NCBI RefSeq assembly: GCF_036227605.1
Contig: NZ_CP109487.1
Coordinates: forward strand, 8,543,001 to 8,607,000
DNA: 64,000 nucleotides
From: Streptomyces sp. NBC_01439
Lineage (GTDB): Bacteria > Actinomycetota > Actinomycetes > Streptomycetales > Streptomycetaceae
Reading direction: 5' to 3'
Below the pieces are notes generated by a model. It was given only the letters and a program-made list of their open reading frames with translations. It searched no databases and was not told the DNA's origin. Both the position numbers and the translations under genes were made by a program. Shown here piece after piece: positions 9,036-24,210 of the stretch; the first letter of the stretch is position 1; the number at the start of each line of letters is the position of its first letter.

Positions 9036-9045
9036 GACGCTCTCC

Positions 9046-9076: not shown

Positions 9077-9103
9077 GCTTCGCACCGGCGACGGACGCGG
9101 CGG

Positions 9104-9541
9104 TCAGCGGCCGTACTGCCGCAGACAGAGGTCGACGATGGACGGCGGTACCGCGCCCTCCGCGGCCGCGCACAACTGGTCCAGGCGGGGCGGCGGGACC
9201 GGCCGCCGCCGCGGATGAGCCGTTGCCGACCCGGGCGTCCGCTTGCGCCGGGGCGGCGCCGCCTTCGCGGCCCGCTCGCGCGGGGGCTCCGGCTCCGGAG
9301 CCGACTTCGGGACCTGCCCCGGGCCCGCGCCCGGCTCCCGGGCCGCGTCCGGAGCGGGCGCGGTGGCCTCGGGCAGGGCCCCCAACGGCAGGGCCCGGGG
9401 CGTCGGGACCTCGGGTGCCTCGGCCGGCGGTACGGATCCGCGCACGGGAGCAGGATCCGGATCCCGGGGCCCGACGGAGACGCAGCCGGTGCTGGCGAGG
9501 AGCACGACGAGGGAGAGGGGCACGGCCCGGCGCAACTGCAT
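9104..9541 (-). CDS. Small lipoprotein, first of two paralogues
   Basis: 145 residues. A lipoprotein signal with lipobox LLASTGC (Cys about 20) is followed by a long Pro/Ala-rich, then Arg/Lys-rich linker that may cross the cell wall. The C-terminal motif is LCAAAEGAVPPSIVDLC. The same arrangement recurs at 20935-21453. AAGGTGG lies 5 bases before the ATG. The two upstream regions are also alike at conserved spacing, so they are probably co-regulated. Function unknown; surface anchoring with a disulphide-closed C-terminal hairpin is inference. Confidence 0.75.
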   Translation of the reverse strand: MQLRRAVPLSLVVLLASTGCVSVGPRDPDPAPVRGSVPPAEAPEVPTPRALPLGALPEATAPAPDAAREPGAGPGQVPKSAPEPEPPRERAAKAAPPRRKRTPGSATAHPRRRPVPPPRLDQLCAAAEGAVPPSIVDLCLRQYGR

Positions 9542-9813
9542 CCGACCACCTTGCCGTACGGTCGGGCCGGACCGGTTTCCCTCTCACGCGTGCGGGTGAA
9601 ACCCGTCCGGCGGGAATGGAACGGGGTGTGTGGGGACGCTCGCGGCGGCCGTCACCGTGTGGGGCGGGCGGGCGGGCGCTGCGGGAGCGGCATGCGCGAC
9701 AGATCGGATGGACGGGGGCGGATCGGACACCCGGCTTGACCCGGCCCCCGCCGGAGGGCAAGAGTGCGCCGATCGAGGACCACAGCGTGAGCCGCACTTC
9801 GGAGAGACGTCAG

Positions 9814-9957
9814 ATGCCCATATCCGTTCGCCCGTCGATCGACCCGGCCGAAATCGACGGTCCTCCGGCGCGCAACGCAGACGACGTACTCGGGACGCCC
9901 GGCGCCCCCGCCGCCGGTGCGGCCCCGTCTCCCGCCGCCCGGCGGCACGGAGCCTGA
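9814..9957 (+). CDS. Possible small protein of 47 residues
   Basis: An open frame with GGAGAGA 6 bases before the ATG. The product (MPISVRPSIDPAEIDG..., Ala/Pro-rich, no Cys) matches nothing I recognise. It is 63 bases upstream of the peptidoglycan-binding protein gene and in the same direction, so it could be a leader gene of that unit. The 272-base stretch before it (9542-9813) otherwise contains only the lipoprotein promoter region. Confidence 0.35.
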   Translation: MPISVRPSIDPAEIDGPPARNADDVLGTPGAPAAGAAPSPAARRHGA

Positions 9958-10020
9958 CCGACCGGGCGGGGGCCGGCGCCGCACCGCCGCGCCGGCCCCC
10001 GTTCCCGCCGGGAAACCACC

Positions 10021-10803
10021 ATGCGCCAGGACCCTGATGAGAGCGGGATCGTCCCCGACGACCACCTGTTCGTACGCCCGTACGTCGCCCCCTCGGGCCC
10101 ACCGCCCCGATCGAGCGCGCCCGCCTGGCCGCAGACCGGCCCCCTCGCCTTCCCCGGCCCCGCGCACGTCCAGGAACCCGGCGTTCCTGTCGCCGCTTCC
10201 GTTCCCGTTCCCGCGCCCGTTCCCGCGCCCGGTTCCGCTCCCGACCCGACTGCGGGCCGCAGTGCCGGCCGGGGTCGTCGCAGCCGGCTCCCGTTCGCCG
10301 TCCTGACCCTGCTGGCGCTCGCCGCGGTGGGCGCCCTGGCGCTCCTGCTGGGCGGCCCCGACCCGCAGCCGCCCCGGGCCGGGGCGCCCGCCGAGCTGTC
10401 CGTACCGAGGCTCCCGGGGCACGGTCCGGACTCCGTCCCCGAGACCGGCGGGCCCGGCCCGACCGCGTCCGCACCGTCCGCCTCCACCTCTGCCGCCGGC
10501 TCGCCGGCTCCCTCCCGAGAACCGGGCGCCGCCGCGAGCCGGGGCCCGAAACCGCCCTCGTCGCCCAGCGCTTCGGTCCCTAGCCCGCCGAGCTCTCCCG
10601 GAACGCTGCGGATGGGCGACAGCGGCCCCGAGGTGCGCGCCCTTCAGGAGCTGCTCCACGGGCAGGGGTTCACGTACGTCTCCGTCACCGGGGTCTACGA
10701 CAGCCAGACCAAGCGCGGCGTCGGCCAGCTGCAGCGCGACCGCTCCATCAAGGGCGACCCTCCGGGCGTCTACGGTCCGGCCACCCAGGCGGCGATGGGC
10801 TGA
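10021..10803 (+). CDS. Membrane-anchored peptidoglycan-binding protein
   Basis: 260 residues. A Pro-rich cytosolic part with a VPVPAPVPAP stretch is followed by basic residues, one transmembrane helix (~90-111), a Ser/Pro/Ala-rich outside linker, and a C-terminal PG_binding_1 domain (about 195-260: LRMGDSGPEVRALQELL, GVYDSQTKRGVGQLQ, GVYGPATQAAM). The domain binds cell-wall peptidoglycan. No catalytic domain is attached, so it likely tethers membrane to wall. GGGAAA precedes the ATG at modest spacing. Confidence 0.8.
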   Translation: MRQDPDESGIVPDDHLFVRPYVAPSGPPPRSSAPAWPQTGPLAFPGPAHVQEPGVPVAASVPVPAPVPAPGSAPDPTAGRSAGRGRRSRLPFAVLTLLALAAVGALALLLGGPDPQPPRAGAPAELSVPRLPGHGPDSVPETGGPGPTASAPSASTSAAGSPAPSREPGAAASRGPKPPSSPSASVPSPPSSPGTLRMGDSGPEVRALQELLHGQGFTYVSVTGVYDSQTKRGVGQLQRDRSIKGDPPGVYGPATQAAMG

Positions 10804-10834
10804 CCGACCGCCGCACCCTCCGACCCCGTGAGGA

Positions 10835-10848
10835 TTGAACGCGTTCAA
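10835..10848. promoter_or_regulatory. 14-bp perfect palindrome over a probable promoter
   Basis: TTGAACGCGTTCAA is perfectly palindromic, like many TetR-type operators. TTGAAC can also serve as a -35 box, with AGGCTA (10859-10864) as -10 at 18 bp. Transcription would then start near 10871, inside any upstream-start version of the next gene. No regulator gene is adjacent. Confidence 0.55.
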
Positions 10849-10938
10849 ATCTCGTGTCAGGCTACTGGTGAACGCAGAACGGGCGCTTTCGAGCGCTTCG
10901 TTCCCGTGCCATCCGTACCCGTGCCCAAGGGGGTTTCC

Positions 10939-11121
10939 TTGTCCGTCCCGGTCCCACCGCCCGGCCCGCCGCCGCCCCCGCACCCCCGACCGGTGCCCGC
11001 ACCCCCGCCCCCGCCGGACGAGCACAGGGTGGCGAAGGCATTCGCAATGTCCTGCTTCACCGCCGTCGTCGTCGTGCTGCTGCTCTTGATGGCGCTGTTC
11101 AGCCTGGGAGGGTGGATCTGA
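10939..11121 (+). CDS. Proline-rich tail-anchored small membrane protein
   Basis: 60 residues from a TTG start preceded by AAGGGGG. The first half is almost pure Pro-rich (SVPVPPPGPPPPPHPRP). The C-terminal end is one hydrophobic helix (TAVVVVLLLLMALFSLGGWI), giving a tail-anchored layout. In-frame GTG codons at 10921 and 10828 are alternatives; the promoter at 10835-10864 argues against 10828. The leader has a hairpin GCGCT-TTCG-AGCGC (10883-10896) with a stable UUCG loop. Function unknown. Confidence 0.5.
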   Translation: MSVPVPPPGPPPPPHPRPVPAPPPPPDEHRVAKAFAMSCFTAVVVVLLLLMALFSLGGWI

Positions 11122-11148
11122 ACCCTGGAACCGTCGGCCCCCGCGGGA

Positions 11149-11892
11149 TCAGCGGCCGCCGGAGACCCGCAGCACCGTGCCCGTCGTGTACGAGGCGTCC
11201 GCGGAGAGCAGCCAGGCGACCGCCCCGGCGATCTCTTCGGGCCGGCCGGGCCGGCCGAGCGGGATCCCCGCCGCGGCCTTCGCCGGACGGTCGGGATCGC
11301 CCATGGCCGCGTGCATGTCGGTCTCGATGATGCCCGGAGCCACGGCGTTGACCCGGATCCCGTCCGGGCCGAGCTCTTTGGCGAGCCCCACGGTGAGCGC
11401 GTCGACGGCCGCCTTGGTCGCTGCGTAGTGCACGTACTCCCCGGGACTGCCGAGGGTGGCGGCCGTGGAGGAGACGTTCACGATCGCCCCGCCGTCGCCC
11501 TCCGCCATGTCCCGGGCGGCCCGGCGGCAGCACAGCAGATACCCGAGGAGGTTCACCTCGACGACCCGCCGCAGGTCCTCGGTGCGGGCATCGGCGAGCC
11601 GGCCCAGCGGGCCCGTCACCCCGGCGTTGTTCACCAGCCCGGTCACCCGGCCGAGTTCGGCGCCGGCGATGTCGAAGAGCCGCTCGACGGCGCACTCCTC
11701 GGAAATGTCACCGCGCACGGTCACACAGCGTGCCCCGGCGGCCCGCACCTGCTCGGCGACGGCCCCGGCCGCCGCCGCGTCGCGGGTGTAACCGAGCGCC
11801 AGATCGTGCCCGTCGGCGGCCAGCCGCAGACAGGTCGCCGCACCGATGCCCCTGCTGCCGCCGGTGACGACGGTGACCGGACGAGCTGACAT
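11149..11892 (-). CDS. SDR-family oxidoreductase, FabG-like
   Basis: 247 residues, a classical short-chain dehydrogenase/reductase. The cofactor motif TGGSRGIG is near residue 11, NNAG near 90, Ser in NVSSTAAT near 141, and YVHYAATK supplies the catalytic Tyr and Lys (~155-159). The last part, VAPGIIETDM and VSGG, is FabG-like. AGGAGG lies 6 bases before the ATG at 11892, which rules out the longer frame running into the MITE upstream. Substrate unknown; NADPH-dependent carbonyl reduction is the family reaction. Confidence 0.9.
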   Translation of the reverse strand: MSARPVTVVTGGSRGIGAATCLRLAADGHDLALGYTRDAAAAGAVAEQVRAAGARCVTVRGDISEECAVERLFDIAGAELGRVTGLVNNAGVTGPLGRLADARTEDLRRVVEVNLLGYLLCCRRAARDMAEGDGGAIVNVSSTAATLGSPGEYVHYAATKAAVDALTVGLAKELGPDGIRVNAVAPGIIETDMHAAMGDPDRPAKAAAGIPLGRPGRPEEIAGAVAWLLSADASYTTGTVLRVSGGR

Positions 11893-11932
11893 GGGGCCTC
11901 CTGCGGGACACGGAACCTGGGACAGCGGCGCC

Positions 11933-12097
11933 CTAGTGCTGTGGCCGGAAAGGTTTGCCGGTTCGCGGCGTTCGGTGCGGTGCATCGCAAGGCGGAGGAC
12001 AGCGGCTCGTACTGGACGTACTTGCGCGGTCCGACAACGCGGCGAGGCGCCGTACCGGGCGTCGTGAGCCGGTGAACCTTTCCGGTCACAGCACTAG
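11933..12097. mobile_element. MITE with ~32-bp imperfect terminal inverted repeats
   Basis: A 165-bp segment begins CTAGTGCTGTGGCCGGAAAG and ends with the near-perfect complement, CTTTCCGGTCACAGCACTAG on the + strand. The arms match at about 28 of 32 positions. Both ends carry CTAG, consistent with insertion at a TA or CTAG target, as IS630- or some IS5-family elements do. There is no room for a transposase, so it would move in trans. It lies in the promoter region upstream of the SDR gene and the RNA ligase gene. Confidence 0.75.
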
Positions 12098-12130
12098 CGA
12101 CGCCAGGGGCGCAGCGACGCCAGGGGCGCC
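12097..12130. repeat. Two tandem 17-bp repeats at the MITE edge
   Basis: GCGACGCCAGGGGCGC plus A or C occurs at 12097-12113 and again at 12114-12130, starting at the last base of the MITE. It may be a trace of the insertion or of replication slippage. Confidence 0.6.
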
Positions 12131-12169
12131 AGCGGCGCGCCGGGGCGGGCAGGCTAACACCGTGATATT

Positions 12170-12182
12170 CGCTGGACCAGCG
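12170..12182. promoter_or_regulatory. Short palindrome upstream of the RNA ligase gene
   Basis: CGCTGG-A-CCAGCG is a perfect dyad about 87 bases before the ligase start, next to an AT-richer patch (GTGATATT). It is a candidate operator; no bound regulator can be named. Confidence 0.35.
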
Positions 12183-12268
12183 GAAATGGCCAGAAGCAGA
12201 GTGGTCGTCACCGACGCACCGCACCACCGGGCGTCGTCCGTGTCCCCGATCACTGTTGGAGCCGTCCC

Positions 12269-13345
12269 ATGTCGACCCTGCGCGTCACCGCCGAAGAACT
12301 GACCGTCCACGAGCACCCGAACGCGGATGCGCTGGAACTGGCCCAGGTGGGCCTGTATCGCGCCGTGATCGCCAAGGACGCCTACCGCACGGGTGAGTAC
12401 GCGGTCTACATCCCCGAACAGGCGGTGCTGCCGGCGGATCTGATCGAGGAGCTCGGCCTCACCGGGCGGCTCGCGGGCGGCTCCGCCGACCGGGTCAAGG
12501 CGGTACGGCTGCGCGGCGAACTCTCGCAAGGACTGGTGTGCCGGCCGCGCGCGCTCGCCGACGTGGACCTGGCGCAGGCGGCCGAGGAAGGGACGGACTT
12601 CGCGGAACTGCTCGGCATCACCAAATGGGCCCCGCCCATACCCACGACCATGAACGGTGACGTCGAAGCCGCCGCCGACCTGATGCCGTGGGTCGACATC
12701 GAGAACCTCCAGCGCTACCCGCATATCTTCGAGCCCGGCGAGCCGGTCGTCCTCACCGAGAAACTGCACGGCACCGCCTGCCTGTTCACGTACGTGGCCG
12801 AGGGCGAGCGGTCCTTCGTCTCCTCCAAGGGGTTCGGCTCGAAGGGCCTGGCGCTCAAGGAGGACGAGCGCAACCTCTATTGGCGGGCCGTACGCGGGCA
12901 CGGCGTGGCGGCCGTCGCGGCCGCCCTGGCCCACCGCCTCGGCGCGACCCGGGTCGGGATCTTCGGCGAGGTGTACGGCAAGGGCGTCCAGGACCTGTCG
13001 TACGGGACCGACGTCCGTACCGCCGACGCGCCACCCGGATACGCCGTCTTCGACGTCTCCGCCGAGATCGACGGGCAGACGTGCTGGCTGGACCCGGCCG
13101 CCGTCCTGACGGACGGTGAGCTTCCGCTGGTACCACGGCTGTACGAGGGCCCGTACGACCTCGACACGGTGCTGGAACTGGCGAGCGGCCGCGAGACCGT
13201 CTCCGGCAAGGCCGTGCACCTGCGGGAGGGTGTCGTCATCCGGCCGTCGGCGGAACGGTACAGCCCGGTCACGGGCGGCCGCGCCATCGCCAAGGCGGTT
13301 AGCCCGGCGTACCTGACCCGCAAGGGCGGCACCGAGTACGAGTGA
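12269..13345 (+). CDS. RNA ligase, DraRnl (Rnl5) type
   Basis: 358 residues. Family layout: an N-terminal OB-like domain (~1-120), then an ATP-dependent nucleotidyltransferase ligase domain. Motif I is EKLHGT with the Lys that takes AMP at 165; motif III FGEVYG 232-237; motif IV EGVVIRP 320-326; motif V has Lys342 (AIAKAVS). The enzyme joins 3'-OH and 5'-phosphate RNA ends, typically sealing nicks. TTGGAG precedes the ATG. A perfect terminator hairpin follows. It lies 1.2 kb from the RNA-repair operon on the opposite strand, making two RNA ligases in this neighbourhood. Confidence 0.9.
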   Translation: MSTLRVTAEELTVHEHPNADALELAQVGLYRAVIAKDAYRTGEYAVYIPEQAVLPADLIEELGLTGRLAGGSADRVKAVRLRGELSQGLVCRPRALADVDLAQAAEEGTDFAELLGITKWAPPIPTTMNGDVEAAADLMPWVDIENLQRYPHIFEPGEPVVLTEKLHGTACLFTYVAEGERSFVSSKGFGSKGLALKEDERNLYWRAVRGHGVAAVAAALAHRLGATRVGIFGEVYGKGVQDLSYGTDVRTADAPPGYAVFDVSAEIDGQTCWLDPAAVLTDGELPLVPRLYEGPYDLDTVLELASGRETVSGKAVHLREGVVIRPSAERYSPVTGGRAIAKAVSPAYLTRKGGTEYE

Positions 13346-13391
13346 GCCCCCGCGCCCTGCCGCGCTCTGCCGCGCCGCGCCGCGCCGCGCC

Positions 13392-13420
13392 GCGCCCGCC
13401 CCGCTTCGTGGGGCGGGCGC
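13392..13420. terminator. Intrinsic terminator of the RNA ligase gene
   Basis: An 11-bp perfect stem, GCGCCCGCCCC (13392-13402) with GGGGCGGGCGC (13410-13420), and a 7-base loop. Just before it is a simple CCGCG repeat (about 13370-13395), which could slip. Confidence 0.75.
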
Positions 13421-13480
13421 TTCGTGCATGGTGGGATGGGCCAGGGGCGGGTTCCACCAGCACACGGAGAGGCCGGGTAC

Positions 13481-14431
13481 ATGTCCCAGTCGGGCGGCAG
13501 CAGCCAGGAAACCATGCGGGCGATGGCGTACGAGACGTACGGCGGGACGGAGGTGCTCTCCGAGACCCGGCTGCCGATGCCCAAGGTCGGACCCGGTGAG
13601 GTCCTCGTCCGGGTCAAGTGCGCCGCGGTCAACCCCGTCGACTGGAAGATCATGGCGGGCGGGCTCGACCCCCTGATGGACGTGGTCTACCCGGTGGTCC
13701 CCGGCTGGGACGTGTCCGGCACCGTCGAGCGGGTCGGCATCGACACCCCCGAATACGCCGAGGGCGACGAGGTCATCGCGTACGCCCGCAAGGACTACGT
13801 GCACGGCGGGACCTTCGCCGAGTTCGTCACCGTCCCCGTGCGCGCCCTCGCGCACAAGCCCACCTCCCTCACCTGGGCCGAGGCCGCCGGACTCCCGCTC
13901 GCCGGGCTCACCGCCTACCAGCTGCTCACCCGCCTGGGCACCGGCAAGGACGACACCGTCCTCATCCACGGCGCGGCGGGCGGCGTCGGCTCCTTCGGCG
14001 TGCAGATCGCCCGCGCACTGGGCGCCCGGGTCATCGGCACCGCCTCCCCGCGCAACCACGACCGGGTACGCGAACTCGGCGCCGAACCCGTCGAGTACGG
14101 GGACGGGCTCGCCGCGCGCGTACGGGCCCTCGTACCCGACGGCCCCACGGTCGTCGCGGACTTCGTCGGCGGCGTCGGCGCCGTCACCCGGGAGGTGCTG
14201 CACGACGACGGCCGGCACGCATCCATCGCCGACCCCAGTGTGCTCGGTGCGGGCGGCGAGTGGATGTGGGTCCGCCCGGTCGGTAGCGACCTGGCCGAAC
14301 TGGGGCGGCTCGCCGACAGCGGACAGCTGAAGGTGCCGGTCGCGACGACCTTCCCGCTGGGCGAGCTGGCGGCCGCCTTCGAGCTGAGCCAGGGAGGTCA
14401 CACGGCAGGGAAGATCATCATCGAGATCTGA
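13481..14431 (+). CDS. NADP-dependent quinone-oxidoreductase-like enzyme (MDR)
   Basis: 316 residues. A zinc-independent medium-chain dehydrogenase/reductase: GroES-like N-terminal half (VGPGEVLVRVKCAAVNPVDWKIM, VPGWDVSGTVERVG), then a Rossmann half with GAAGGVGSFGVQIA (~165-178) and the closing HTAGKIIIEI. It probably reduces quinones or enones with NADPH. GGAGAGG lies 8 bases before the ATG at 13481. No functional link to the neighbouring RNA-repair genes is evident. Confidence 0.9.
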   Translation: MSQSGGSSQETMRAMAYETYGGTEVLSETRLPMPKVGPGEVLVRVKCAAVNPVDWKIMAGGLDPLMDVVYPVVPGWDVSGTVERVGIDTPEYAEGDEVIAYARKDYVHGGTFAEFVTVPVRALAHKPTSLTWAEAAGLPLAGLTAYQLLTRLGTGKDDTVLIHGAAGGVGSFGVQIARALGARVIGTASPRNHDRVRELGAEPVEYGDGLAARVRALVPDGPTVVADFVGGVGAVTREVLHDDGRHASIADPSVLGAGGEWMWVRPVGSDLAELGRLADSGQLKVPVATTFPLGELAAAFELSQGGHTAGKIIIEI

Positions 14432-14436
14432 TCCAC

Positions 14437-14548
14437 GTGACCCCGGACCCGTGACCCCGGACCCGTGACCCCGGACCCGTGACCCCGGCCCCGTGACCCC
14501 GGACCCGTGACCCCGGACCCGTGACCCCGGACCCGTGACCCCGGACCC
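14437..14548. repeat. 14-bp minisatellite, eight copies
   Basis: Eight head-to-tail copies of GTGACCCCGGACCC; only the fourth differs (CCCC at its end). They fill the gap between convergent genes (MDR enzyme and the 952-aa repair protein). There is no internal dyad, so it is not a terminator array or CRISPR. Copy number is likely to vary between strains. Confidence 0.95.
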
Positions 14549-14563
14549 CTGCGCGCTCACTCC

Positions 14564-17422
14564 TCACACCAGGTCCGGCACCTCGCCGCCGGCCGCCCAG
14601 GAGACCTCGACCCCCGCCAGGCCGGTCCGCCAGGGGCCGGCCAGGGAGGCCAGGCGCGCCGCGTCCGGCGGAGCCGCGCCGAGGCCGATCGCGTAGCAGG
14701 CCAGGGCCGGGCCCGACTCGAAGGGCCGGGGCCAGGCGTGCGCATCCGCGGCACCGGCCTCCTCCAGCGCGCCGAGCAGGGCCCGCAGCCGTCCGCGCAC
14801 CCGGCCCAAGGTCTCCTCGAACTCCGCCTCGGAGGCCGTCCGTACGGTCACCACCGCCCAGGCGGCGTGCCGACGGTGCAGCGGCGGTGGCCCCGGGGCC
14901 CACACGGCGTCCACGGGGCCGGCTTCCAGCAGCTCCCAGGCCGCGTACAACTCCTGGACCAGCAGGTCGCGCAGGCCCGGCCCGACCTGGGCCGTGCAAC
15001 TGCGCACCGGCTCCGAAGGGGTGAGGACCGTGACCGCGTCCGGCCCGCCCTCCGCCGCGCCCGGGCCCGCCGCCGACAGCGAGACGGGCACCCGCCAGTC
15101 CCAGGCGGCCCACCTGCCGAAGAACTCGCGCAGCAGGGCGTCGGGCGGCAGCACTCCGACCTCCTCCACCGTGCGCGCCGCGAGCACCGCCCAGGCCAGC
15201 CCGGGCAGCCCGCCGAACGGCGCCGAGTCCAGCCCGCGGGCCCGCGCCCACGCCTTCACCCGCCGTGCCAGCCCGGCGAACGCGGCGTGCCGCTCCGTTC
15301 CCACCCGTTCCCGTACGGCATCGGCGTCGCTGACCGCGCTCAGCGCGAGCGCGGCCGCCTCGCCCAGCTCCGCCCGCCGTGCCACTGCCTGCGCCGGATC
15401 CAGCCCGCCGGTGGCCACCGCGACCAGGTCCACCGACAGCCCGCCGACGCGGAACCGCAGCCCCGGCACCCGCGCTCCCGTCACCTCCCGCAGCCGCCCC
15501 GCCTCGGGCAGCGCCGCCGCCACCCGGTCCCGTACGAGGGCCACATCGCCCGGCCCGGGCAGCACCGCCACCAGGTCCAGGTCGGCCTCCGGCAGCGCGC
15601 AGCCCATGCGGCGGGACCCGGTCACGTGCACCTGTGCGCCGCCCAGGGCCGCCCGGACGCGCGCGGTGACCGCCCCGGCGGCCTCCTCCGGGACCGCGGT
15701 CCCGGGCCGGCCCGCGGTCTCCGGCTCCAGGCGGACCTCGCCCGTACCCAGTGCCACCGTCGCCCGGACCCGCATCGGCCCGTCCCCGCGCTGCGAGAGG
15801 ACGGCCAGCTCCCCGACCCGCGCGGCCACCGGGCCGCCGAGCCGCGCCGCGAAGGCCGCGACCGCGCGCTGCGGGTCCCGGCTGCGCCCCAGCGTCAGAT
15901 GAGGGGTGTAGCCGTGGTGATCGCCCGTACGCCCCCGGCAGCCCGGGAACCGCTCCGCCAGGGCGCTCCGGAGCTCCTGCCACGGCGCCTCACCGGCCGC
16001 TGCCGGGTCCAGCCAGACGGTGGCGTCCTCACGGTGTCCAAAGCTGTGCACGCCCTTCAACCGGACGGGGAACGGCCCGGTCGCGGCGGCCGCCTCCGCG
16101 AGGAGCGGCACCGCCTCGGCGAAGGAGGACTCCGGGACGAAGCCGAAGAGCAGGTTCACGTGCGCGGGCCAGCGCCCGGCCTGCGGGTCGAGTTCGCGGC
16201 GCAGCTCCCGAACCGCCTCCGGCAGGGGCGGTGCGAGCCATGCCACGGCCGTCCGTGCCGTCGCCGGTACGTCCAGGCGCGCGGGAGCACCGCCCCGCTC
16301 CCCGAACTCCACCGTCGCCTCGACCCCGAAGTGGTCGGAGATGAACAGCCCCTCGGATGCCGGGGAGTCGCCGCGGAGCGCGGCCCGGGTCACCCGTGCC
16401 GGGGTGGACCGCAGCAGGATCCGGTCCAGCCGGGCCGCCCGCCCCGACAGCGAGCCCACCGCGGCCAGCGGATTGGCCACCGGGTCGAAGGTCGGCGTGT
16501 CGTCCGCCGGCCCGTGCACGTCGCTCCAGGCGTCCCGCATCCCGAGCGCGGCCGCGGGCCCCCAGGCGCCGTGGCGGCCGTCGTTGAAGTCGCCCAGCAG
16601 CGCCACCCCGGCCCCGATGCCGCCCAGTCCCTCGGCGAGCCGGGCCAGTTCGGCCTCCCGCCGGACATCGCCGTTCTCGGTGTGGTCGCTGGTCAGGTGG
16701 GTGTTCGAGACGACCAGCGGGCCGGCCGCGGTGTCCACCGTGACGGCGGTGAGCGCCTTGTGCGGGCGGAGGGCGTGCATCCCCGCCTCCCGCACCGGCA
16801 GCCGGCTGAGCAGCAGCAGCCCGCACTCGGCGACGTCCGGGCCGCCCGGATCCGTACCGAGGGTGTACGAGGCCCGCACCCACGGCGCCGCCAGCAGCAT
16901 GCCGAGCAGCTCGGGTTCGACCTCCTGCAGCGCGATGACATCGGCATCCGCGGCCGCGAGATCGGCCAGCAGCAGCGGCCTGCGCCGGGCGGTCGAGATG
17001 CGCGGGGCGTCGTACCGGTCCCAGAGCGTGTTCCAGGTCAGCAGCCGCACCGAGGCGGGCGCGACGGCCGTCCCGCCCCCGGGCACCGGCTCGGCGGGCC
17101 GCCAGGCGCCGCCGCCCGCCGGGTCCCACGCGTGCGGGGTCCGGGCGGTGAAGAACGGAGCCCGCAGCAGCCGCGGATCGCGAACCCGGCCCGCCGCGGT
17201 GACATCGATCCGGTCCACGCCGGTGGCGCGGTCCCACACCAGCTCACCGTCCGCCTCGACGAACAGCACCCGGTGCCAGGGGATGTCGCCGCCGGGCACG
17301 AAGGAGGGCAGCGGGACCCGCTTCGGCGCGGCCCCGCGCTGGAGCAGGCCGAGCACGAACCGGGCCGGATCGAACCGGGAGTCCCAGCGGACCTGGTGGT
17401 AGAGCTCCTCGCTGGTACGCAT
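14564..17422 (-). CDS. RNA-repair fusion: MJ1316 + EEP + 2H + nucleotidyltransferase
   Basis: 952 residues. Domains: ~4-80 MJ1316/DUF504 (IPWHRVLFVEADGELVWDR), thought to recognise cyclic RNA ends; ~125-372 endonuclease/exonuclease/phosphatase with Asn131, Glu167, His242, GDFN 277-280, RLDRIL, SDH 362-364; ~395-570 2H phosphoesterase with HVN (421-423) and HLT (508-510); ~580-850 polymerase-beta-type nucleotidyltransferase with GS 602-603, Asp613, Asp615 and Asp665, plus a PAP-like helical part. Together these could open 2',3'-cyclic phosphate, trim or dephosphorylate ends, and add nucleotides. The ATG at 17422 overlaps the upstream stop (TGATG), so it is coupled to the ligase-kinase. Domain calls are strong; the combined pathway is inference. 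Confidence 0.9.
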   Translation of the reverse strand: MRTSEELYHQVRWDSRFDPARFVLGLLQRGAAPKRVPLPSFVPGGDIPWHRVLFVEADGELVWDRATGVDRIDVTAAGRVRDPRLLRAPFFTARTPHAWDPAGGGAWRPAEPVPGGGTAVAPASVRLLTWNTLWDRYDAPRISTARRRPLLLADLAAADADVIALQEVEPELLGMLLAAPWVRASYTLGTDPGGPDVAECGLLLLSRLPVREAGMHALRPHKALTAVTVDTAAGPLVVSNTHLTSDHTENGDVRREAELARLAEGLGGIGAGVALLGDFNDGRHGAWGPAAALGMRDAWSDVHGPADDTPTFDPVANPLAAVGSLSGRAARLDRILLRSTPARVTRAALRGDSPASEGLFISDHFGVEATVEFGERGGAPARLDVPATARTAVAWLAPPLPEAVRELRRELDPQAGRWPAHVNLLFGFVPESSFAEAVPLLAEAAAATGPFPVRLKGVHSFGHREDATVWLDPAAAGEAPWQELRSALAERFPGCRGRTGDHHGYTPHLTLGRSRDPQRAVAAFAARLGGPVAARVGELAVLSQRGDGPMRVRATVALGTGEVRLEPETAGRPGTAVPEEAAGAVTARVRAALGGAQVHVTGSRRMGCALPEADLDLVAVLPGPGDVALVRDRVAAALPEAGRLREVTGARVPGLRFRVGGLSVDLVAVATGGLDPAQAVARRAELGEAAALALSAVSDADAVRERVGTERHAAFAGLARRVKAWARARGLDSAPFGGLPGLAWAVLAARTVEEVGVLPPDALLREFFGRWAAWDWRVPVSLSAAGPGAAEGGPDAVTVLTPSEPVRSCTAQVGPGLRDLLVQELYAAWELLEAGPVDAVWAPGPPPLHRRHAAWAVVTVRTASEAEFEETLGRVRGRLRALLGALEEAGAADAHAWPRPFESGPALACYAIGLGAAPPDAARLASLAGPWRTGLAGVEVSWAAGGEVPDLV

Positions 17423-19224
17423 CAGTACGGCCCCTGTCCCTGTCCCTGTCCCTGTCCCGGTTTCGTGTCCGCAGGCGCGGCCGCGAGGCCGCCCGCCGTG
17501 TCCTCCACGACCCCGGCCGCACCGATGTACCACGTACGGTGCGCCTGACCGGCGTACGGCGGGTTGAACCGGTGCACCTGCGAGGTGAGCACCTGCGGCG
17601 GCACCGGATGCGGGCGCACCCCGTTGCGCCGCACCAACTCCGCCTTCTCCACGAGCACCACGGCGTGGGTGACCAGCGCGTTGCGGCGCCGTGCGACCGA
17701 ACCCGCCAGGCCGCGCTGCTGGTCGGTGAGCGAGGTGGCGTCCCACACCACCGTCCCGCCGCGGGCCAGGGCCGCGTCCAGCCGGTCCAGGCCCTCGCTC
17801 AACACCTCGGCGTTGGCCCCCTGGTCCGCACGGGCACCTCGGGCCGTGCGCAGATCGTCCAGACCGATGTACGCGTCCACCCCGGGCAGTTCGCGGCCGA
17901 ACGTGCTCTTCCCGCTGCCCGAGGGCCCGCACAACTGCACTAGTCGCGGAAACGTTCCGTCACGCCACTGCCACGTCGCCGCCACCGCTTCCTCCACCGC
18001 CGACCCCGAGATCGCGCCCCGCGCGAAGGCCCGCCGGGCCTCGGCCCAGCAGCGGTCCGCAGCCTCCGTGCCCAGCCCAGCGAGCGCCTCGCGCAGCCCG
18101 GCGCGCAGGGCCTCCAGCGGATCCGGGCCGAGCAGCCCGGCCTCCTCGGCGCACAGCTCCGACCATTGCGCGCACTCCCGCGCCTCCGGCCCGTCCGCCA
18201 GCGCCCCGGCCAGCGCGTGCAGCACGCCGAGATCGGCCGCGGCGGCCATCCGGACCAGCCCGGCCCGCCGGTCCTCGTCCGGGAACGGCCGCTGCAGGTA
18301 CGGGTACAGCCCCACCAGATCGGCGACCCGTCGCGCGAGCCGCATACCGGCCGGGCCCGCCGCGATCCGTGCCGCGATCGTGGCCCGCGGCTCGCGGTGG
18401 AGCACGGCCGCCAGGACCCCGGCCAGCCGGTCCTCCCCGGTCCGCCCCGCCCCGTCGATCCGGGCCACGACCTCGGCCACCTCGTCCGCGGCGGCGGCCC
18501 CGGTGCTGCCGGCGGCTCCGGTGGTGCCGGTCCCGGGCATCCCGAGAGCGGCGGACAGCCCGGGCACATCGGCCTCGGCCCCCGAGCGCACCGCCCACAA
18601 CGCGGCCGTCGGTCCCAGCCCGTTCGGCACGACCTGCGCGAACATCCAGTGCGTACTGGTCTGCACGTGGCCGCCCCGCACCCACTTGGCCACGCACCGG
18701 CCGAAGTCCTCGCGCGCGAAACCGGCCGCCGTCCGTACGACGTACCCCTCCTGACGCGTCGTGTCGAGCTTCAGCTTGCGCAGCGCGCGCTCGTCGAAGG
18801 TGCCCCGCCACAGGACGCGCGGGGTGGGCACGCCCAAACCGTGCAGGAACCGTACGGTCCGGTCCCAGTCCAGGCAGTGCTCCCCGTCCCACACGGAGAA
18901 CCCGTAGAACCAGCTGTCCAGGTCCTCGTACGGGATCGAATGCCGGGCGTAGAGGTTCTCCCCGCACACCCGCCACCCGGCCGGGATCCCGGGGCCGATA
19001 CGGCCCTGGAGGCCCTTGACCCAGGCGCGCGAGGGGTGGTGCGCCGAGTCGAGCGAGCGGGCGTGCAGCCCGTCCGCGTACAGGGTCGTGTTCTCCCCGT
19101 CGAGCTTCTCGGTCACCACGACCTCGCGCCCGACCAACCCCGCCAGTCCGACGGCCCGGACGTCGTCCGCCGCCGCCCCGGGGGACCAGGGGAGGTGCGG
19201 CGTACGGGGATAGTGGATGCGCAT
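17422..19224 (-). CDS. RNA ligase - polynucleotide kinase fusion
   Basis: 600 residues. N-terminal ATP-dependent RNA ligase: motif I EKLDGEN with Lys40, motif III GENLYARHSIPY (88-99), motif IV EGYVVR (159-164), motif V KWVR (180-183). A helical linker (~240-420) leads to a P-loop kinase: Walker A GPSGSGKST (433-441), GLDDLR (454-459), VVWDATSLTDQQR (492-504), as in T4-Pnkp-like 5'-OH kinases. It should phosphorylate 5'-OH ends and seal RNA. AGGAG lies 7 bases before the ATG at 19224. The tail GQGQGQGQG comes from a 6-bp repeat at the gene end. First gene of the repair operon. Confidence 0.9.
   Translation of the reverse strand: MRIHYPRTPHLPWSPGAAADDVRAVGLAGLVGREVVVTEKLDGENTTLYADGLHARSLDSAHHPSRAWVKGLQGRIGPGIPAGWRVCGENLYARHSIPYEDLDSWFYGFSVWDGEHCLDWDRTVRFLHGLGVPTPRVLWRGTFDERALRKLKLDTTRQEGYVVRTAAGFAREDFGRCVAKWVRGGHVQTSTHWMFAQVVPNGLGPTAALWAVRSGAEADVPGLSAALGMPGTGTTGAAGSTGAAAADEVAEVVARIDGAGRTGEDRLAGVLAAVLHREPRATIAARIAAGPAGMRLARRVADLVGLYPYLQRPFPDEDRRAGLVRMAAAADLGVLHALAGALADGPEARECAQWSELCAEEAGLLGPDPLEALRAGLREALAGLGTEAADRCWAEARRAFARGAISGSAVEEAVAATWQWRDGTFPRLVQLCGPSGSGKSTFGRELPGVDAYIGLDDLRTARGARADQGANAEVLSEGLDRLDAALARGGTVVWDATSLTDQQRGLAGSVARRRNALVTHAVVLVEKAELVRRNGVRPHPVPPQVLTSQVHRFNPPYAGQAHRTWYIGAAGVVEDTAGGLAAAPADTKPGQGQGQGQGPY
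17432..17458. repeat. 6-bp tandem repeat at the end of the ligase-kinase gene
   Basis: CCCTGT repeated 4.5 times; it encodes the (GQ)n tail of the ligase-kinase. Unit length is a multiple of 3, so slippage changes tail length without a frameshift. It ends 10 bases before the start of the downstream repair gene. Confidence 0.85.
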
Positions 19225-19315
19225 GGTCCGCTCCTGCTCGACATCGGGTACCTCGTCACTGTAGGTAACCCGACCGGACGCATCCACCCGATATCACCAG
19301 CCGCAGGCCATCCTG

Positions 19316-20854
19316 TCAGCCCGGTACCGATACCGGTGGCGGCACCGGCACGGCTGCGGCGAGTTGGCCGGCCGCCGCGAAGTGCAGCCGCTCCAGCCGG
19401 GCCGCGTACGGCCAGCCGGCCGCCCGGTAGAAGCACAGGTCGCTCGGGATCGGTACGGCCCGCAGGTCGGCGGCGTGCGTTCCGTCCGGGAGCTCGGTGG
19501 CCGCCGCGAGCAGCGGGTCCGCCGAACCGGCCCACTCACCAACCGGGGCGGGCCGCGGCCACGGCTCCCCGGTGTTGGGGAACAACCACCGGGTGTCCCG
19601 GGCCATCCGCGCGGCGAAGTCAGGGCCCGCCGCGGCCCGCCGGGCCAGCCGTGCGAAGGTCAGCAGCAGGTCCGGCAGGGACTCGGCGAGCAGGGCCAGC
19701 TCCGGGTACTCCCGCAGGCTCTCGCCGTTGCCGGGCACGGACACCACGTACCCCCACCGGCCGGTCGCCGGGTCGATGCGGATCTGCGCCAGGGCGTGGT
19801 CGCGCCCGTGGTCGATCCGGGCGAGCGGCCAGTACGAACCGTCGCCGCCCAGCATGCGGTGCAGTTCGGGGTCCACCGCGTGCTCGGGCGCCCCGGGCAG
19901 CAGCCGCAGGGCCGGAAGTCCCGCGATCGCCACCCCGCCGATCTCCCGGAGCACGGTCCGGACCTCCTCGGGGACCGGTACCGCCCAGCCGTCCATGACG
20001 GAGTCGGCGCACCCCGCATCGAGCACGACGAAGCCGGGCCGTTCGTCGGCCAGTTCCCGCAGCTCGGCCACCGCACGCCGAGCGGCATCGGCCGGCACGC
20101 GGTGGCGGCGCACGGCCCGGCCGAGGAAGTCCCCGCTGACCACGCTGCGCAACAGGAGGGCCCTGCCCTCACCCACGATCTGGAACTGGATCTCGCTGCT
20201 TCCGGTGTCGGCCGTGTCGTGGAAGGTCGAGAAGTACGGCTCCCAGTCCACGGCGCACGGATAGCCCGGCAGGCCGTGCAGATCGACGAGATCGGTGAGC
20301 GGGTCACCGCGGCCGACGAGCGCGACGAGCTCGCCGTCGAGCCCCTCGCCCCCCTCGTCCCCCTCGCCCCCTTCCGCTCCCTCGGCGAGTTCGACGGTGG
20401 AGGTGGCCGGCACGGAGAACCTCCCCCGCGGCCGGTCCGCCACCCCGTCCGCGAACCGTTCGGCGAACCCGGCGAGCCATGCGGTGAAGTCCGGTGCCTC
20501 GACGGTGACATCGGGGTCGGACCCCCACGGATTGACGGCCACGACGGGCCCCCAGCCGGTGCCCCCGACCCCCACGATCAGCGAGCCTTCACCGAAGTCG
20601 GTTTCCCCCAGGGTCCAGCAGCCGTCGGCGAACACCTCACGGCCGCGCGGTCCGAAGCGGTACTCGTGGTCCTCGGTCTCCAAGCCGCCGATCTCCCGCA
20701 GGACCCCCCGCACCTCCTCGGGCACCGCCACGGCCCAACCGTCCAACTCCGCGTCCGTGAACCCTTCGAACAGCTCCAGCTCGTCCGGTCGCTCCCGCGC
20801 CAGTTCCCTGAGCGCCCGCACGGCATCCACCGCCGACGGCCCCGCCTCGTACAT
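19316..20854 (-). CDS. Tandem SMI1/KNR4 (SUKH) domain protein
   Basis: 512 residues with two SUKH-like repeats. Each has the hallmark Trp-Ala-Val-x-Val-Pro-Glu-Glu-Val-Arg plus LREIGG: DGWAVAVPEEVRGVLREIGG near residue 38 and DGWAVPVPEEVRTVLREIGG near 290. SUKH proteins often act as immunity proteins against nuclease toxins, but many are stand-alone. No toxin gene is beside it. It ends 91 bases upstream of the RNA-repair operon in the same direction, so it could share transcripts. A Glu/Gly-rich stretch (~155-175) separates the halves. ATG at 20854 with GGGGAG some way upstream. Confidence 0.8.
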   Translation of the reverse strand: MYEAGPSAVDAVRALRELARERPDELELFEGFTDAELDGWAVAVPEEVRGVLREIGGLETEDHEYRFGPRGREVFADGCWTLGETDFGEGSLIVGVGGTGWGPVVAVNPWGSDPDVTVEAPDFTAWLAGFAERFADGVADRPRGRFSVPATSTVELAEGAEGGEGDEGGEGLDGELVALVGRGDPLTDLVDLHGLPGYPCAVDWEPYFSTFHDTADTGSSEIQFQIVGEGRALLLRSVVSGDFLGRAVRRHRVPADAARRAVAELRELADERPGFVVLDAGCADSVMDGWAVPVPEEVRTVLREIGGVAIAGLPALRLLPGAPEHAVDPELHRMLGGDGSYWPLARIDHGRDHALAQIRIDPATGRWGYVVSVPGNGESLREYPELALLAESLPDLLLTFARLARRAAAGPDFAARMARDTRWLFPNTGEPWPRPAPVGEWAGSADPLLAAATELPDGTHAADLRAVPIPSDLCFYRAAGWPYAARLERLHFAAAGQLAAAVPVPPPVSVPG

Positions 20855-20934
20855 CTTCTTGGCTCCCCGTGTCGTCCGTTCCGCGGCTTTGAGGGTATCC
20901 CCGCGACTGCGGCCGCGGCGGCCCCCGGGCGCAC

Positions 20935-21453
20935 TCAGCGGCAGAGGGCGACGATGGACGGATGCACCGTGCCCTTGGCCGCCTCGCACAGGGAGGCCAT
21001 GTCGTACGGACGCTGCGGCGCCGGCCGGGGCTTGACCAGTGTCGGCGGCCGCTTGCGGGGCTTTGCCGGAGCCGCGGTCTTCACCCGCTTGGCGGGCCGC
21101 CGGGGGCGCGGGGGCTTCGTGTCGACCCGGTGGGGGCGATGCGGCCGTTCGACCGCCGCCGGTGCCGGTGCCAGAGCCGGAGCCGGAGCCGGCCCGGCCT
21201 CCCGGAGCACGCGCGGTGCGGGCGGTGCGGGCGGTGCGGGCGGTGCCGGTGGGACGGGCAAGGAGGTGTCCGGCGATACCGGGAGCGGGCTCAACGGCAG
21301 CGCGAGGGGTGCCGGTTGCCGGACCGGCGTACGGGCCGCCGCAGGCTCCGCCGGTCGCGGCGCGGCCGGCGGAGCGGTGGGACGCACCGTCAGGCACCCG
21401 GTGGCCAACACGAGAGCGGCAAGGGTCACGGGCAGGGCGAGGCGCAGCTGCAT
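20935..21453 (-). CDS. Small lipoprotein, second paralogue
   Basis: 172 residues with lipobox LVLATGC (Cys about 20), a Pro/Ala-rich linker (PPAPPAPPAPPAP from a GGTGCGGGC-type repeat), a Lys/Arg-rich stretch, and the C-terminal motif LCEAAKGTVHPSIVALC. It is clearly paralogous to the protein at 9104-9541 in length, layout, N-terminus (MQLRxAxP) and C-terminus. The ATG at 21453 matches the paralogue start. The upstream 60 bases are similar in two blocks at the same spacing. Function unknown. Confidence 0.75.
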   Translation of the reverse strand: MQLRLALPVTLAALVLATGCLTVRPTAPPAAPRPAEPAAARTPVRQPAPLALPLSPLPVSPDTSLPVPPAPPAPPAPPAPRVLREAGPAPAPALAPAPAAVERPHRPHRVDTKPPRPRRPAKRVKTAAPAKPRKRPPTLVKPRPAPQRPYDMASLCEAAKGTVHPSIVALCR

Positions 21454-21521
21454 CCGCCCACCCTGCCGTACCGGCACCGCGCGAGCCGAACCCCCTCACA
21501 CGGACGGGTGACGGCGCGCGT

Positions 21522-22748
21522 TCAGGCCCGGCTGCGCCCCCGCGTGGCCAGCCGGAGCACGTGCTCCACCGGGCCGCGGCGCAGCGGGCTTTCGGCCCAG
21601 ACCAGCTGCCAGGACCAGGTCAGGGCCAGGGCCGCGCCGCTGAAGGCCAGCCAGGCGGACCAGGACGCGGCGCCGTGCGCCGGACCGGCCAACACCAGCG
21701 CGTGGACGACGTACGCGCTCAGCGCCATCGCCCCGAGCACCGTGAGCGGCCGCAGCAGGCGCGCACCCACCCCGTGCCGTGCGGCGAGCGCGCACAGGCC
21801 GATGAGGGCGCAGCCCACCCCCGCGTTGCCCAGGGTCTCGAGCGGGGTCTGGCTGTAGGGATCGGCCACCAGCAGCCAGTCCCAGGAGGTGCTGGGCACG
21901 GCGCCGTACTGGCCTTGCAACACCTCCCGTACGGGATCGGCCGCGGCCAGGGCCTCCGGATGGTGCACGGCGATCGCCTCCAGCAACCGCTGCCGGGCGC
22001 CGAACACGTGGCTCGCGAGCCACGCGGAGCCGTATCCGGCGAAGGCGGCCACCGTGCCCCACACCGCCATCCGCCGGGCCACCGACCGCTCCCGCACCTC
22101 GCACAGCCGGGCGAGCGCCATTCCGGCCAGGACGTACGGGAAGTAGGTGGCCAGCGGATAGGCCCCGGTGAGCAGCAGCTCCAGCACCACCGCACCCAGC
22201 CCGGACCAACTGGCCAGATCGGCGACCTCGGGTACCAGCCCGCGCCCGGACGCCTCGTACCCGAACACCGGGCCCAGCAGGAACGACAGCAGCGGCCCCG
22301 CCACCACCGAGACGCCCGCCACGACGGTGAGCACCGGAGTCGACAGCCGGGTGAAGGGCTCGGCCGCCAGGAAGTACACGGCGAAGAAGGCCAGGATGAC
22401 CAGGATCCCGGGCCACAACGAGGCCAGCCACACGCCGAGTACGGCCAGCAGCGCGCAGCGGACCAGTAGGGGTCGCCAGCGGTCCGCCCAGCCCTGCGGG
22501 CGCTGCGCCGGGTCCAGCCCGCGCTGGGCGAGGACCAGGGAGAAACCGGCGAGCAGGGTGAAGAGGGCCGGGGCGCGCCCGTCGGCCGCGACGAGGAGGT
22601 ATCCGGCGCCCTCCGGCTCCGGGCTGGGGCCGACGTGCACGGCGAACATGCCGAGGACGGCCAGTCCGCGTACGGCGTCGACCCCGGCCAGCCGGCCGCC
22701 GGACCCCGCGGACGGCGGCGCCGCCGCTCCCGCGCCCGGGCCCGTCAC
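21522..22748 (-). CDS. DUF418/acyltransferase-like multi-pass membrane protein
   Basis: 408 residues, about 9-10 transmembrane helices. RLAGVDAVRGLAVLGMFAVHVGP near residue 17 is typical of DUF418/DUF1624 and acyltransferase-3-like proteins. Later signs are LAGFSLVLAQRG and the final WSWQLVWAESPLRRGPVEHVLR, which is characteristic of DUF418. Function of the family is unsettled; transfer of acyl groups across the membrane is suspected. The GTG at 22748 is chosen because it overlaps the stop of a short upstream frame as GTGA and has no ribosome site of its own. Confidence 0.8.
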   Translation of the reverse strand: MTGPGAGAAAPPSAGSGGRLAGVDAVRGLAVLGMFAVHVGPSPEPEGAGYLLVAADGRAPALFTLLAGFSLVLAQRGLDPAQRPQGWADRWRPLLVRCALLAVLGVWLASLWPGILVILAFFAVYFLAAEPFTRLSTPVLTVVAGVSVVAGPLLSFLLGPVFGYEASGRGLVPEVADLASWSGLGAVVLELLLTGAYPLATYFPYVLAGMALARLCEVRERSVARRMAVWGTVAAFAGYGSAWLASHVFGARQRLLEAIAVHHPEALAAADPVREVLQGQYGAVPSTSWDWLLVADPYSQTPLETLGNAGVGCALIGLCALAARHGVGARLLRPLTVLGAMALSAYVVHALVLAGPAHGAASWSAWLAFSGAALALTWSWQLVWAESPLRRGPVEHVLRLATRGRSRA

Positions 22749-22792
22749 GCGCCGCACGTCACGCGGTCGCGCGGGGTGCAACGGGTCTTCAT
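22745..22792 (-). CDS. Possible 15-codon leader peptide coupled to the DUF418 gene
   Basis: ATG at 22792 preceded by GGGAGACG; the product is MKTRCTPRDRVTCGA and its stop overlaps the DUF418 GTG start (GTGA). The same frame can also begin at 22924 (59 residues) behind AGGAGGG. Translation here would deliver ribosomes to a start that lacks a Shine-Dalgarno sequence. Confidence 0.4.
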   Translation of the reverse strand: MKTRCTPRDRVTCGA

Positions 22793-22965
22793 CGTCTCCC
22801 GTCCGAAGCGGCCCGCCGAAGCCGACGGCCGCGGCACCGCGGCCGCACCGGCGATCCCCGTCGCGGTCCACCTCCTGCCGGGTTCCGCCGGGGTGCCGGT
22901 GCCCGTGGGGGAGGCGCGTCGCATGTGGGGGTCCCTCCTGGGTCCGTCGGGTCCGTCCGGTGCCT

Positions 22966-22991
22966 GAAAGCTGGTCGGACCGACGGCTTTC
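22966..22991. promoter_or_regulatory. Hairpin or dyad in the DUF418 upstream region
   Basis: GAAAGC (22966-22971) and GCTTTC (22986-22991) flank an inner GTC-GGACC-GAC dyad. It lies in the 415-base space between the divergent DUF418 and Nudix genes. The same space holds an unusually AT-rich patch (about 23015-23055) that probably contains promoters, and AAGGAGGT at about 23044 with no start codon behind it. Confidence 0.4.
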
Positions 22992-23163
22992 ACGCCGCCA
23001 GTCCGCATCCGGAAGGTACCAGGGAGTACATAACCAAGTAATAAGGAGGTATAGGGGCGGTAAAGGCGAGGGGCGTCGGAGAGGGCGGGCCGGGCGCCGT
23101 AACCCGGGAGCCGTGCCCGCTGTTGCACAGTCCGGCAGGTCCACCCACGGTGAACGGAGTCCG

Positions 23164-24210
23164 ATGCCGCAGCTGACCGACCAGGGCGCGATCGACGAAC
23201 ACGACGCGATCGACGAACACGAGCGGGAGCGGACGGGGACCTGGATGACCCCGGCGGAGTACGGGGCCTCGCGGGCCGCCGTGTGGACCGCGGCCGTCGT
23301 CCTCGTCACCGACACCCACGGCCGGATCCTCGTCCAGAGCGTCGACTACCGCGCCGACCGGCTGCTTCCCGGCGGAGCCGTGGACGCCGGCGAGGCACCG
23401 TCCGCGGCGGCCGCCCGGGAGCTGCGCGAGGAACTCGGCGTCGACGGCCGCTACCCGCGCGGCCTCGCCGTGGACTGGATCCCGGCCGACACCCCGGGCT
23501 TCCCGCCCGAGATGCGCTTCCCCGGCGAGATCCTGCACGTCTACGACGGCGGCACCTGGACCCCCGACCGGATCGAAGCCGTCCGCCTCCCGGCCCAGGA
23601 GATCACCGCCATCCACTTCGCCGAACCGGCCGACCTGCCCGCCCTGATGGACCCGGGCGACGCCCGCCGCGCACTGTCCGCCCTGCGCGCCCGCATCAAC
23701 GGCTCCGGCGCAGTCCTGCTCGAGGACGGCCGTCCCACCGCGCCGACCGCCCTCGACCGGCTCGGGGTCCTGCGCACCCGGCGGATCCCGCAGCACGGCG
23801 CCTGGCACCCGGGCCCGGTTCCGGAGCGGCTGCCCGTGCGGGACCTGTCGGCCTGGCTGTTCGCCCCCGACGGCCGGGCCCTGGTGCTGATCTCCCGGGC
23901 CACCGGCGCCGTCCACCTCCCGCCCCCGACGGCCGCAGCCACCGAGGACGCCGTCCCGCTCGGCTACCGGGACGGCGAGCAGGGCGCCCACGCCCGCACC
24001 GCGGCCCGCCTCACCGTCCTCCCCCCGGGCACGGACGCGGCGTACGCGCGCCTGCTGGCCACCCCCGAACAGGTCCGCGAACTGAGCGACTGGGGACGGG
24101 CGGGCGACGACGAGCTCACGGCGGTCCACGCCGCCCGCGCCCGTTTCGGCCTCCCCGTCCCCGCCCGCACCCCACCCACCGAACTTCCCGGGGAGGACGT
24201 CCGTCGCTGA
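23164..24210 (+). CDS. Nudix hydrolase with long C-terminal extension
   Basis: 348 residues, about twice the usual length. Nudix box near residues 71-93 fits Gx5Ex7REUxEExGU: Gly71, Glu77, Arg85, Glu86, Glu89, Glu90. The core is ~38-190. The second half (~225-340) has a degenerate Nudix-like look (DLSAWLFAPDGRALVLISRA) without the catalytic Glu residues. The N-terminus has a duplicated IDEHxAIDEH from a 17-base direct repeat near 23190-23223. It hydrolyses nucleoside diphosphate-X compounds by family; substrate unknown. CGGAG precedes the ATG. Confidence 0.85.
   Translation: MPQLTDQGAIDEHDAIDEHERERTGTWMTPAEYGASRAAVWTAAVVLVTDTHGRILVQSVDYRADRLLPGGAVDAGEAPSAAAARELREELGVDGRYPRGLAVDWIPADTPGFPPEMRFPGEILHVYDGGTWTPDRIEAVRLPAQEITAIHFAEPADLPALMDPGDARRALSALRARINGSGAVLLEDGRPTAPTALDRLGVLRTRRIPQHGAWHPGPVPERLPVRDLSAWLFAPDGRALVLISRATGAVHLPPPTAAATEDAVPLGYRDGEQGAHARTAARLTVLPPGTDAAYARLLATPEQVRELSDWGRAGDDELTAVHAARARFGLPVPARTPPTELPGEDVRR

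Follow-up and report, generated by a model that had tools for sequence, protein, structure and literature searches.

The described system closest to the one studied here is the operon DRB0100/DRB0099/DRB0098 of Deinococcus radiodurans, which encodes a ligase, a PARG macrodomain protein and an HD-Pnk; irradiation induces it, and the literature refers to it as a putative operon for DNA repair (PMC1997131, PMC11833690). Its ligase takes adenosine monophosphate (AMP) on Lys40 (PMC1997131). We analyse a two-gene operon of Streptomyces sp. NBC_01439 whose first product, a ligase-kinase here called LK, is homologous to that operon, and whose second, here called FUS, is a fusion of an MJ1316 domain, an EEP domain, a 2H domain and a poly(A) polymerase (PAP). 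It lies in a stretch of 64,000 nucleotides, the window (contig NZ_CP109487.1, positions 8,543,001 to 8,607,000), of a genome of 9.58 Mb on a single contig. Compared with Deinococcus, ligase and kinase form one chain, the HD domain is dead, and the operon has no PARG gene but an additional one, FUS.

The general logic of such a system is already in print: the RNA repair "syntax" that the text of PMC7824862 attributes to Burroughs and Aravind (2016) has the same set of a ligase, a kinase, an opener of cyclic ends, a phosphatase and a base-restoring nucleotidyltransferase. Pnkp1-Rnl-Hen1 and T4 Pnkp/Rnl1 likewise counter nuclease damage with a healing enzyme and an ATP-dependent RNA ligase (PMC4411300), whereas LK-FUS has other 3'-healing domains, no methylase, and a canonical PAP in addition. 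RtcAB of Escherichia coli also ties RNA repair to ribosome-targeting antibiotics (PMC12606134), with a ligase and a regulator unrelated to those of LK-FUS. To the known logic, the present analysis adds the replacement of a dead HD domain and a proposed WblC regulon. The architecture of LK-FUS itself is probably listed in the 2016 work of Burroughs and Aravind.

LK occupies positions 17422-19224 of the window and FUS positions 14564-17422, both on the minus strand, as are all their domains and the promoter described below. They are 600 and 952 amino acids long, and the end of LK overlaps the start of FUS by TGATG, as can be read in the sequence: an initial annotation, made from the letters of the window, had the overlap, the coordinates and the lengths exactly right. 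A scan of genome contigs confirmed 235 stretches that encode a relative of FUS, of which the best 80 were kept as actinobacterial loci, from genera including Streptomyces, Kitasatospora, Nonomuraea, Planomonospora, Actinoallomurus and Plantactinospora. These loci are mutually related, with pairwise identities of FUS as low as 57%, and counts over them are not independent; counts of FUS omit one locus whose start codon was not found (L029), and counts of LK omit truncated loci.

LK is immediately upstream of FUS in 79 of the 80 loci; in the last, L042, there is no LK within the 10 kb flank of FUS. A one-base overlap recurs in 48 of the 79 measurable junctions (78 loci and the window). Among 246 sampled Streptomyces genomes, 69 have MJ1316, 49 have LK (E <=1e-30) and 47 have both, adjacent by their coordinates in all 47; the two genomes with LK only contain fragments of it. 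Phylum samples agree: the three genomes with a full LK (n=392) are the same three that have MJ1316 (n=396). Given the 79 loci and the recurring overlap, the pairing is not a product of chance, and LK-FUS is a stable unit, probably made together. Of the 22 genomes of the genus sample with MJ1316 only, 20 were fetched (G622 and G628 were left out): a short MJ1316-2H protein is encoded in 18 of them, an MJ1316-EEP piece in another, and a full FUS in the last. The short protein (L198-L217), without EEP or PAP and usually in a genome without LK, gives the genus a second architecture with MJ1316. A separate curiosity is genome G407, where LK appears to be in two pieces 2.8 Mb apart (C1:8841899 and C1:6010958), as if split by a rearrangement.

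The first 205 residues of LK (18610-19224) form a ligase domain with Lys40 as adenylation site, and residues 424-576 (17497-17955) a P-loop 5'-OH polynucleotide kinase of the HD-Pnk type. Pfam matches RNA_ligase at residues 33-182 (PF09414, 6.8e-33; 114.6 bits for a cut-off of 27) and AAA_33 at 428-556 (3.3e-17), both above curated cut-offs. Lys40 and a Walker A motif at 433-441 had been picked out beforehand, and in all 39 aligned LKs Lys40 and G433, G436, S437, G438, K439 and S440 are invariant, as are K40, G43, E44, N45, E159, G160, K180, W181 and R183, which we take to be the ligase motif residues. In the predicted model (mean predicted local distance difference test score, pLDDT, of 80) the kinase has a strong structural match; a single-sequence search with LK matched no solved structure. 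Residues 1-203 are 58.8% identical to the ligase of D. radiodurans plasmid MP1, and residues 252-565 are 33% identical to the HD-Pnk of the D. radiodurans operon (E 5e-26). At its C-terminus, just before the overlap, LK has a Gly-Gln tail coded by a 6-bp repeat (window 17432-17458).

Between ligase and kinase lies a degenerate HD domain (residues about 241-420, or about 262-418 by a narrower estimate; 17965-18504), which is recognized by profile comparison with HD-Pnk: the middle part of LK alone gives a probability of 93.7 and E 2e-7, in a single comparison with no database. The residues H51, H81, D82, H107, H139 and D173, presumably metal ligands, are each kept in nine of nine HD-Pnks, a set from which L193, L196 and L197 were dropped for having no whole HD-Pnk, and from which matches in Vibrio, Pseudomonas, Proteus and Methylorubrum were left out. 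In the 39 LKs, H51, H107 and D173 are never found, D82 is found in 6, H139 in 25 and H81 in 33: what LK contains is not an HD domain with its metal-binding residues. The 3'-phosphoesterase of its ancestor is therefore probably dead, and LK is, as far as its residues tell, a derivative of HD-Pnk, not a working one. Among plasmid records, 34 have a near-full match to HD-Pnk and 8 a match to FUS, and no record has both, a comparison of records, not of whole genomes.

All four domains announced for FUS, in the order MJ1316-EEP-2H-nucleotidyltransferase, are matched by profile search above curated cut-offs: MJ1316 at residues 1-65 (2.2e-17), Exo_endo_phos at 128-364 (2.8e-16), 2_5_RNA_ligase2 at 398-547 (5.7e-35) and PAP_central at 718-785 (2.5e-8). 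The structure predictions recommended by the initial annotation bear out part of this assignment: matches are strong for the nucleotidyltransferase and EEP, as for the kinase of LK, while in the model of FUS (mean pLDDT 85) the MJ1316 part is of low confidence, and the 2H assignment depends on Pfam and on a weak PDB sequence match (2d4g, 2e-4). The MJ1316 domain (17228-17422), modelled poorly, is thus assigned on sequence alone: it scores 63.9 bits for a cut-off of 26.3, and is the genome's only match to PF04457. The text of PMC6514570 asserts, citing Burroughs and Aravind, that MJ1316 binds 2',3'-cyclic RNA ends, and describes diverse RNA-repair fusions of MJ1316 in eukaryotes.

The EEP domain (residues 119-375; 16298-17068) has the fold and the catalytic Asn, Glu, His, Asp, Asn and Asp-His, and its nearest solved fold is TDP2. 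In the 2H domain (residues about 388-565; 15728-16261; PF13563), His421 and His508 are present in all 80 proteins; the second motif has Thr or Ser in all 80, and the first reads His-x-Asn in 76 and His-x-Thr in the other 4. The last module (residues 572-952; 14567-15709), with the nucleotidyltransferase at about 571-949, has, by structural match of the model, all three domains of a canonical, eukaryotic-type PAP, together with its catalytic Gly-Ser and three Asp (D614, D616, D665). Since Asp732 replaces, in 80 of 80 actinobacterial proteins, the Tyr of PAP gamma, the base chosen by the polymerase may differ from ATP.

Loss of catalytic residues in most homologues, which the initial annotation had named as a refutation, did not occur: these residues are kept across the 80 actinobacterial proteins, and in nearly all of 121 cyanobacterial ones, where aligned. 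At about 30% identity, the cyanobacterial proteins share the four domains and their order. A plasmid protein of Calothrix has the four domains and 30% identity, and a search with it listed 120 proteins, of which the named ones are cyanobacterial and 111 have all four Pfam domains. They differ from the actinobacterial proteins in having Tyr or His at the position of Asp732, and are annotated "poly(A) polymerase" or "RNA repair domain-containing protein". In the one cyanobacterial locus inspected, on the Calothrix plasmid, there is no ligase-kinase beside FUS. Four points go beyond the initial annotation: these relatives, the death of the HD domain, the polymerase being of eukaryotic type, and the promoter discussed below.

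A natural test is offered by two loci that have FUS without LK: L042, mentioned above, and L204, in whose genome no LK is found at E <=1e-30. Both have Asn in place of D616 in the polymerase; L204 has in addition an insertion in the region of the third Asp, and GDLNE instead of GDFND in its EEP domain. The two proteins are 89% identical and belong to sister lineages, so the loss of LK with D616N counts as one event. A polymerase that loses a catalytic Asp where LK is absent suggests, from these residues, that the polymerase of FUS serves the ligase.

The predicted promoter of the operon, at 19258-19295, is of the WblC/WhiB7 type: a GATATC hexamer (19290-19295), 3 bp, a -35 element TGGATG (19281-19286), 17 bp, and a -10 element TACAGT (19258-19263). 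Promoters activated by WblC in S. coelicolor follow the template GAAAWY, 3 bp, TKGMNN, 16-19 bp, TANNNT (PMC7157823); the window sequence GATATC-GGG-TGGATG-17-TACAGT agrees with five of the six positions of the first hexamer, and exactly with the remainder. The stretch upstream of LK is conserved across loci, and the core of the template is present in 57 of 71 regions upstream of LK, in 14 of 17 genus labels, versus 24 of 1061 regions upstream of other genes of the same loci. Many of the predicted genes that these control regions precede are internal to operons, a fact that depresses the control rate; among controls with a gap of at least 100 nt, the core is found in 18 of 583. At least four of the six hexamer positions match in 38 of 71 regions versus 3 of 1061 controls, and all six match in 3 of 71 versus none of 1061. 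A "four A/T" criterion separates them further (52 of 71 versus 1 of 1061), having been chosen after the conserved stretch was seen. An earlier promoter pattern (61 of 71), derived by fitting to these data, is set aside as evidence.

The core is absent from the 200 nt upstream of a second ligase of the region, of DRB0094 type (the window and 11 loci), of 19 short MJ1316-2H genes or LK-less kin, and of the two LK-less FUS genes. The host genome encodes a WblC-like WhiB protein with an RPRGRPRK tail (C1:3639691). As a positive control, the template was applied to nine WhiB genes read in the genome: in the one with the AT-hook tail, a five-of-six match precedes the first Cys by about 800 nt, and another has a three-of-six match; a further gene flagged for an AT-hook is doubtful, being part of a long frame of 557 codons. 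These promoter matches make it probable that WblC/WhiB7 turns the operon on under translation stress, as when antibiotics stall the ribosomes. The word "ligase" is absent from the main text of PMC7157823, and no paper linking WblC to RNA repair is among the best-ranked literature matches (the first 12 of 93 and the first 8 of 154).

RNA repair, the reading proposed by the initial annotation, is the best fit to these domains and residues, and we consider it likely that translation stress induces LK-FUS as a line for RNA repair, working as follows. The substrate would be an RNA, tRNA or rRNA, with a 2',3'-cyclic phosphate and a 5'-OH at the ends left by nuclease cleavage. MJ1316 would bind the cyclic end, 2H would open the ring, giving a linear 2'- or 3'-phosphate, EEP would take off the resulting phosphate, and the canonical PAP would restore lost 3' nucleotides where needed. 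The kinase of LK would then phosphorylate the 5'-OH, and its ligase, with AMP on Lys40, would seal the break. LK itself would have originated from a ligase and an HD-Pnk such as those of Deinococcus, the HD phosphoesterase having died and been replaced by the 2H and EEP domains of FUS. That such a path is "self-contained" stands in so far as the gene pair is constant and no other partner is constant across clades; the activity of each enzyme and the order of steps we infer, and ribotoxins, as a source of damage, and perhaps tRNA, as a substrate, would be candidates only.

Several observations weigh against this reading. EEP is nearest to TDP2 by both sequence and fold, and TDP2 is an enzyme that cuts phosphotyrosyl bonds rather than an RNA phosphatase; His-x-Asn is the usual form of the first 2H motif; and the model of MJ1316 is of low confidence. 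The core of the promoter is missing from 14 of the 71 regions upstream of LK, including that of S. scabiei (L071), both Actinacidiphila loci, and the Dactylosporangium and Plantactinospora loci, and the relatedness of the loci inflates the promoter numbers. In Deinococcus, DRB0100, alone or with its operon partners, ligated neither DNA nor RNA in the 2007 assays as given in PMC1997131, and the HD mutants H81A and D82E of DRB0098 kept phosphatase activity, which the authors suspect to come from an E. coli contaminant (PMC1997131).

One alternative keeps RNA repair and changes its chemistry: 2H would yield a 2'-phosphate and a 3'-OH, the ligase would seal these ends, and KptA/Tpt1 would later remove the phosphate from the junction, with EEP and PAP left for other ends. 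Some 2H enzymes do yield 2'-phosphate ends, and the genome has a KptA homologue (C1:4998215), although a single match in one genome is not specific. The substrates on which DRB0100 was inactive include, in the text of PMC1997131, no named 2'-phosphate end; yet the Deinococcus relative pairs its ligase with an HD phosphatase-kinase, not with 2H, and the active-site residues of EEP are conserved in FUS. We judge this alternative unlikely.

Slightly less likely still is the repair of DNA ends. A TDP2-like EEP, a polynucleotide kinase, an end-filling nucleotidyltransferase and a ligase resemble the eukaryotic set that processes DNA ends, and both the proximity of EEP to TDP2 and the name and radiation response of the Deinococcus operon speak for it. 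However, MJ1316, 2H and a three-domain canonical PAP are RNA domains, by family knowledge and the matches obtained here, the promoter looks like one from a regulon for translation stress, short MJ1316-2H proteins stand alone in the genus, and DRB0100 failed to ligate DNA (PMC1997131).

Least probable is that FUS is an RNA 3'-tail enzyme, separate from LK, whose PAP adds and whose EEP removes tails marking damaged or stalled RNAs for decay: the two activities do share a chain, "poly(A) polymerase" is the NCBI name of many members, and one cyanobacterial FUS lacks an adjacent ligase, but in actinobacteria LK all but invariably precedes FUS, and the polymerase loses its catalytic Asp where LK is gone.

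Clustering of the operon's neighbours, with a crude gene caller, gave no third partner common across clades, and neighbours vary by clade. The DRB0094-type RNA ligase (TIGR02306, 1.3e-131) lies at 12269-13345 on the plus strand, convergent with the operon; a ligase of this type is also nearby and convergent in D. radiodurans, at about 2 kb. It is linked in only 11 of the 80 loci, and is therefore a neighbour and not a core part; it is also found on four Streptomyces plasmids. Upstream of LK, a long frame at 19316-21499 on the minus strand has no Pfam match, and its homologues precede LK in six loci; a SUKH-like assignment made by eye was dropped, Pfam giving no match. Rfam has no match in window 9000-24000. 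A 14-bp tandem repeat (14436-14548; 8.1 copies, 97% match) separates the end of FUS from a convergent gene for an oxidoreductase. In some ten species of Streptomyces, including those of L071, L029 and L080, the operon is on the opposite strand within the core str/S10 ribosomal cluster, flanked by genes that we take to encode EF-Tu and ribosomal protein S10.

A phage origin was rejected, FUS having no match in 50,697 phage records or in viral contigs. Of LK, only the ligase domain is common in viruses (80 viral loci kept; 32 phage records), and while 4 of these 80 viral loci have HD-Pnk-like genes, none has FUS. A label from a defence library was also set aside: the sole PADLOC match to LK is a weak one to the P-loop of mad3 (E 0.041). 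Elsewhere, the host genome has a bacterial Pnkp (C1:2677308, 1351 bits), RtcB (C1:4359508), KptA and two more RNA ligases above the Pfam cut-off (C1:270252 and C1:505062), and so appears to hold several RNA repair routes in one cell.

A more specific form of the repair model we advance tentatively, with somewhat less than even confidence: in actinobacteria, the repair of tRNA or rRNA broken under translation stress would be controlled by WblC/WhiB7, a eukaryotic-type PAP would refill 3' ends ahead of sealing, and the loss of the HD activity would have made LK dependent on a second protein, which may hand ends to the ligase. A ligase that needs ends from its partner would explain why the Deinococcus relative did not seal in vitro. 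If true, RNA repair would be joined to the main antibiotic-stress regulon of actinobacteria, there would be a possible reason for the absence of sealing by a DRB0100-type ligase in the 2007 assays, and the part that a canonical poly(A) polymerase plays in repair could be studied in a bacterium.

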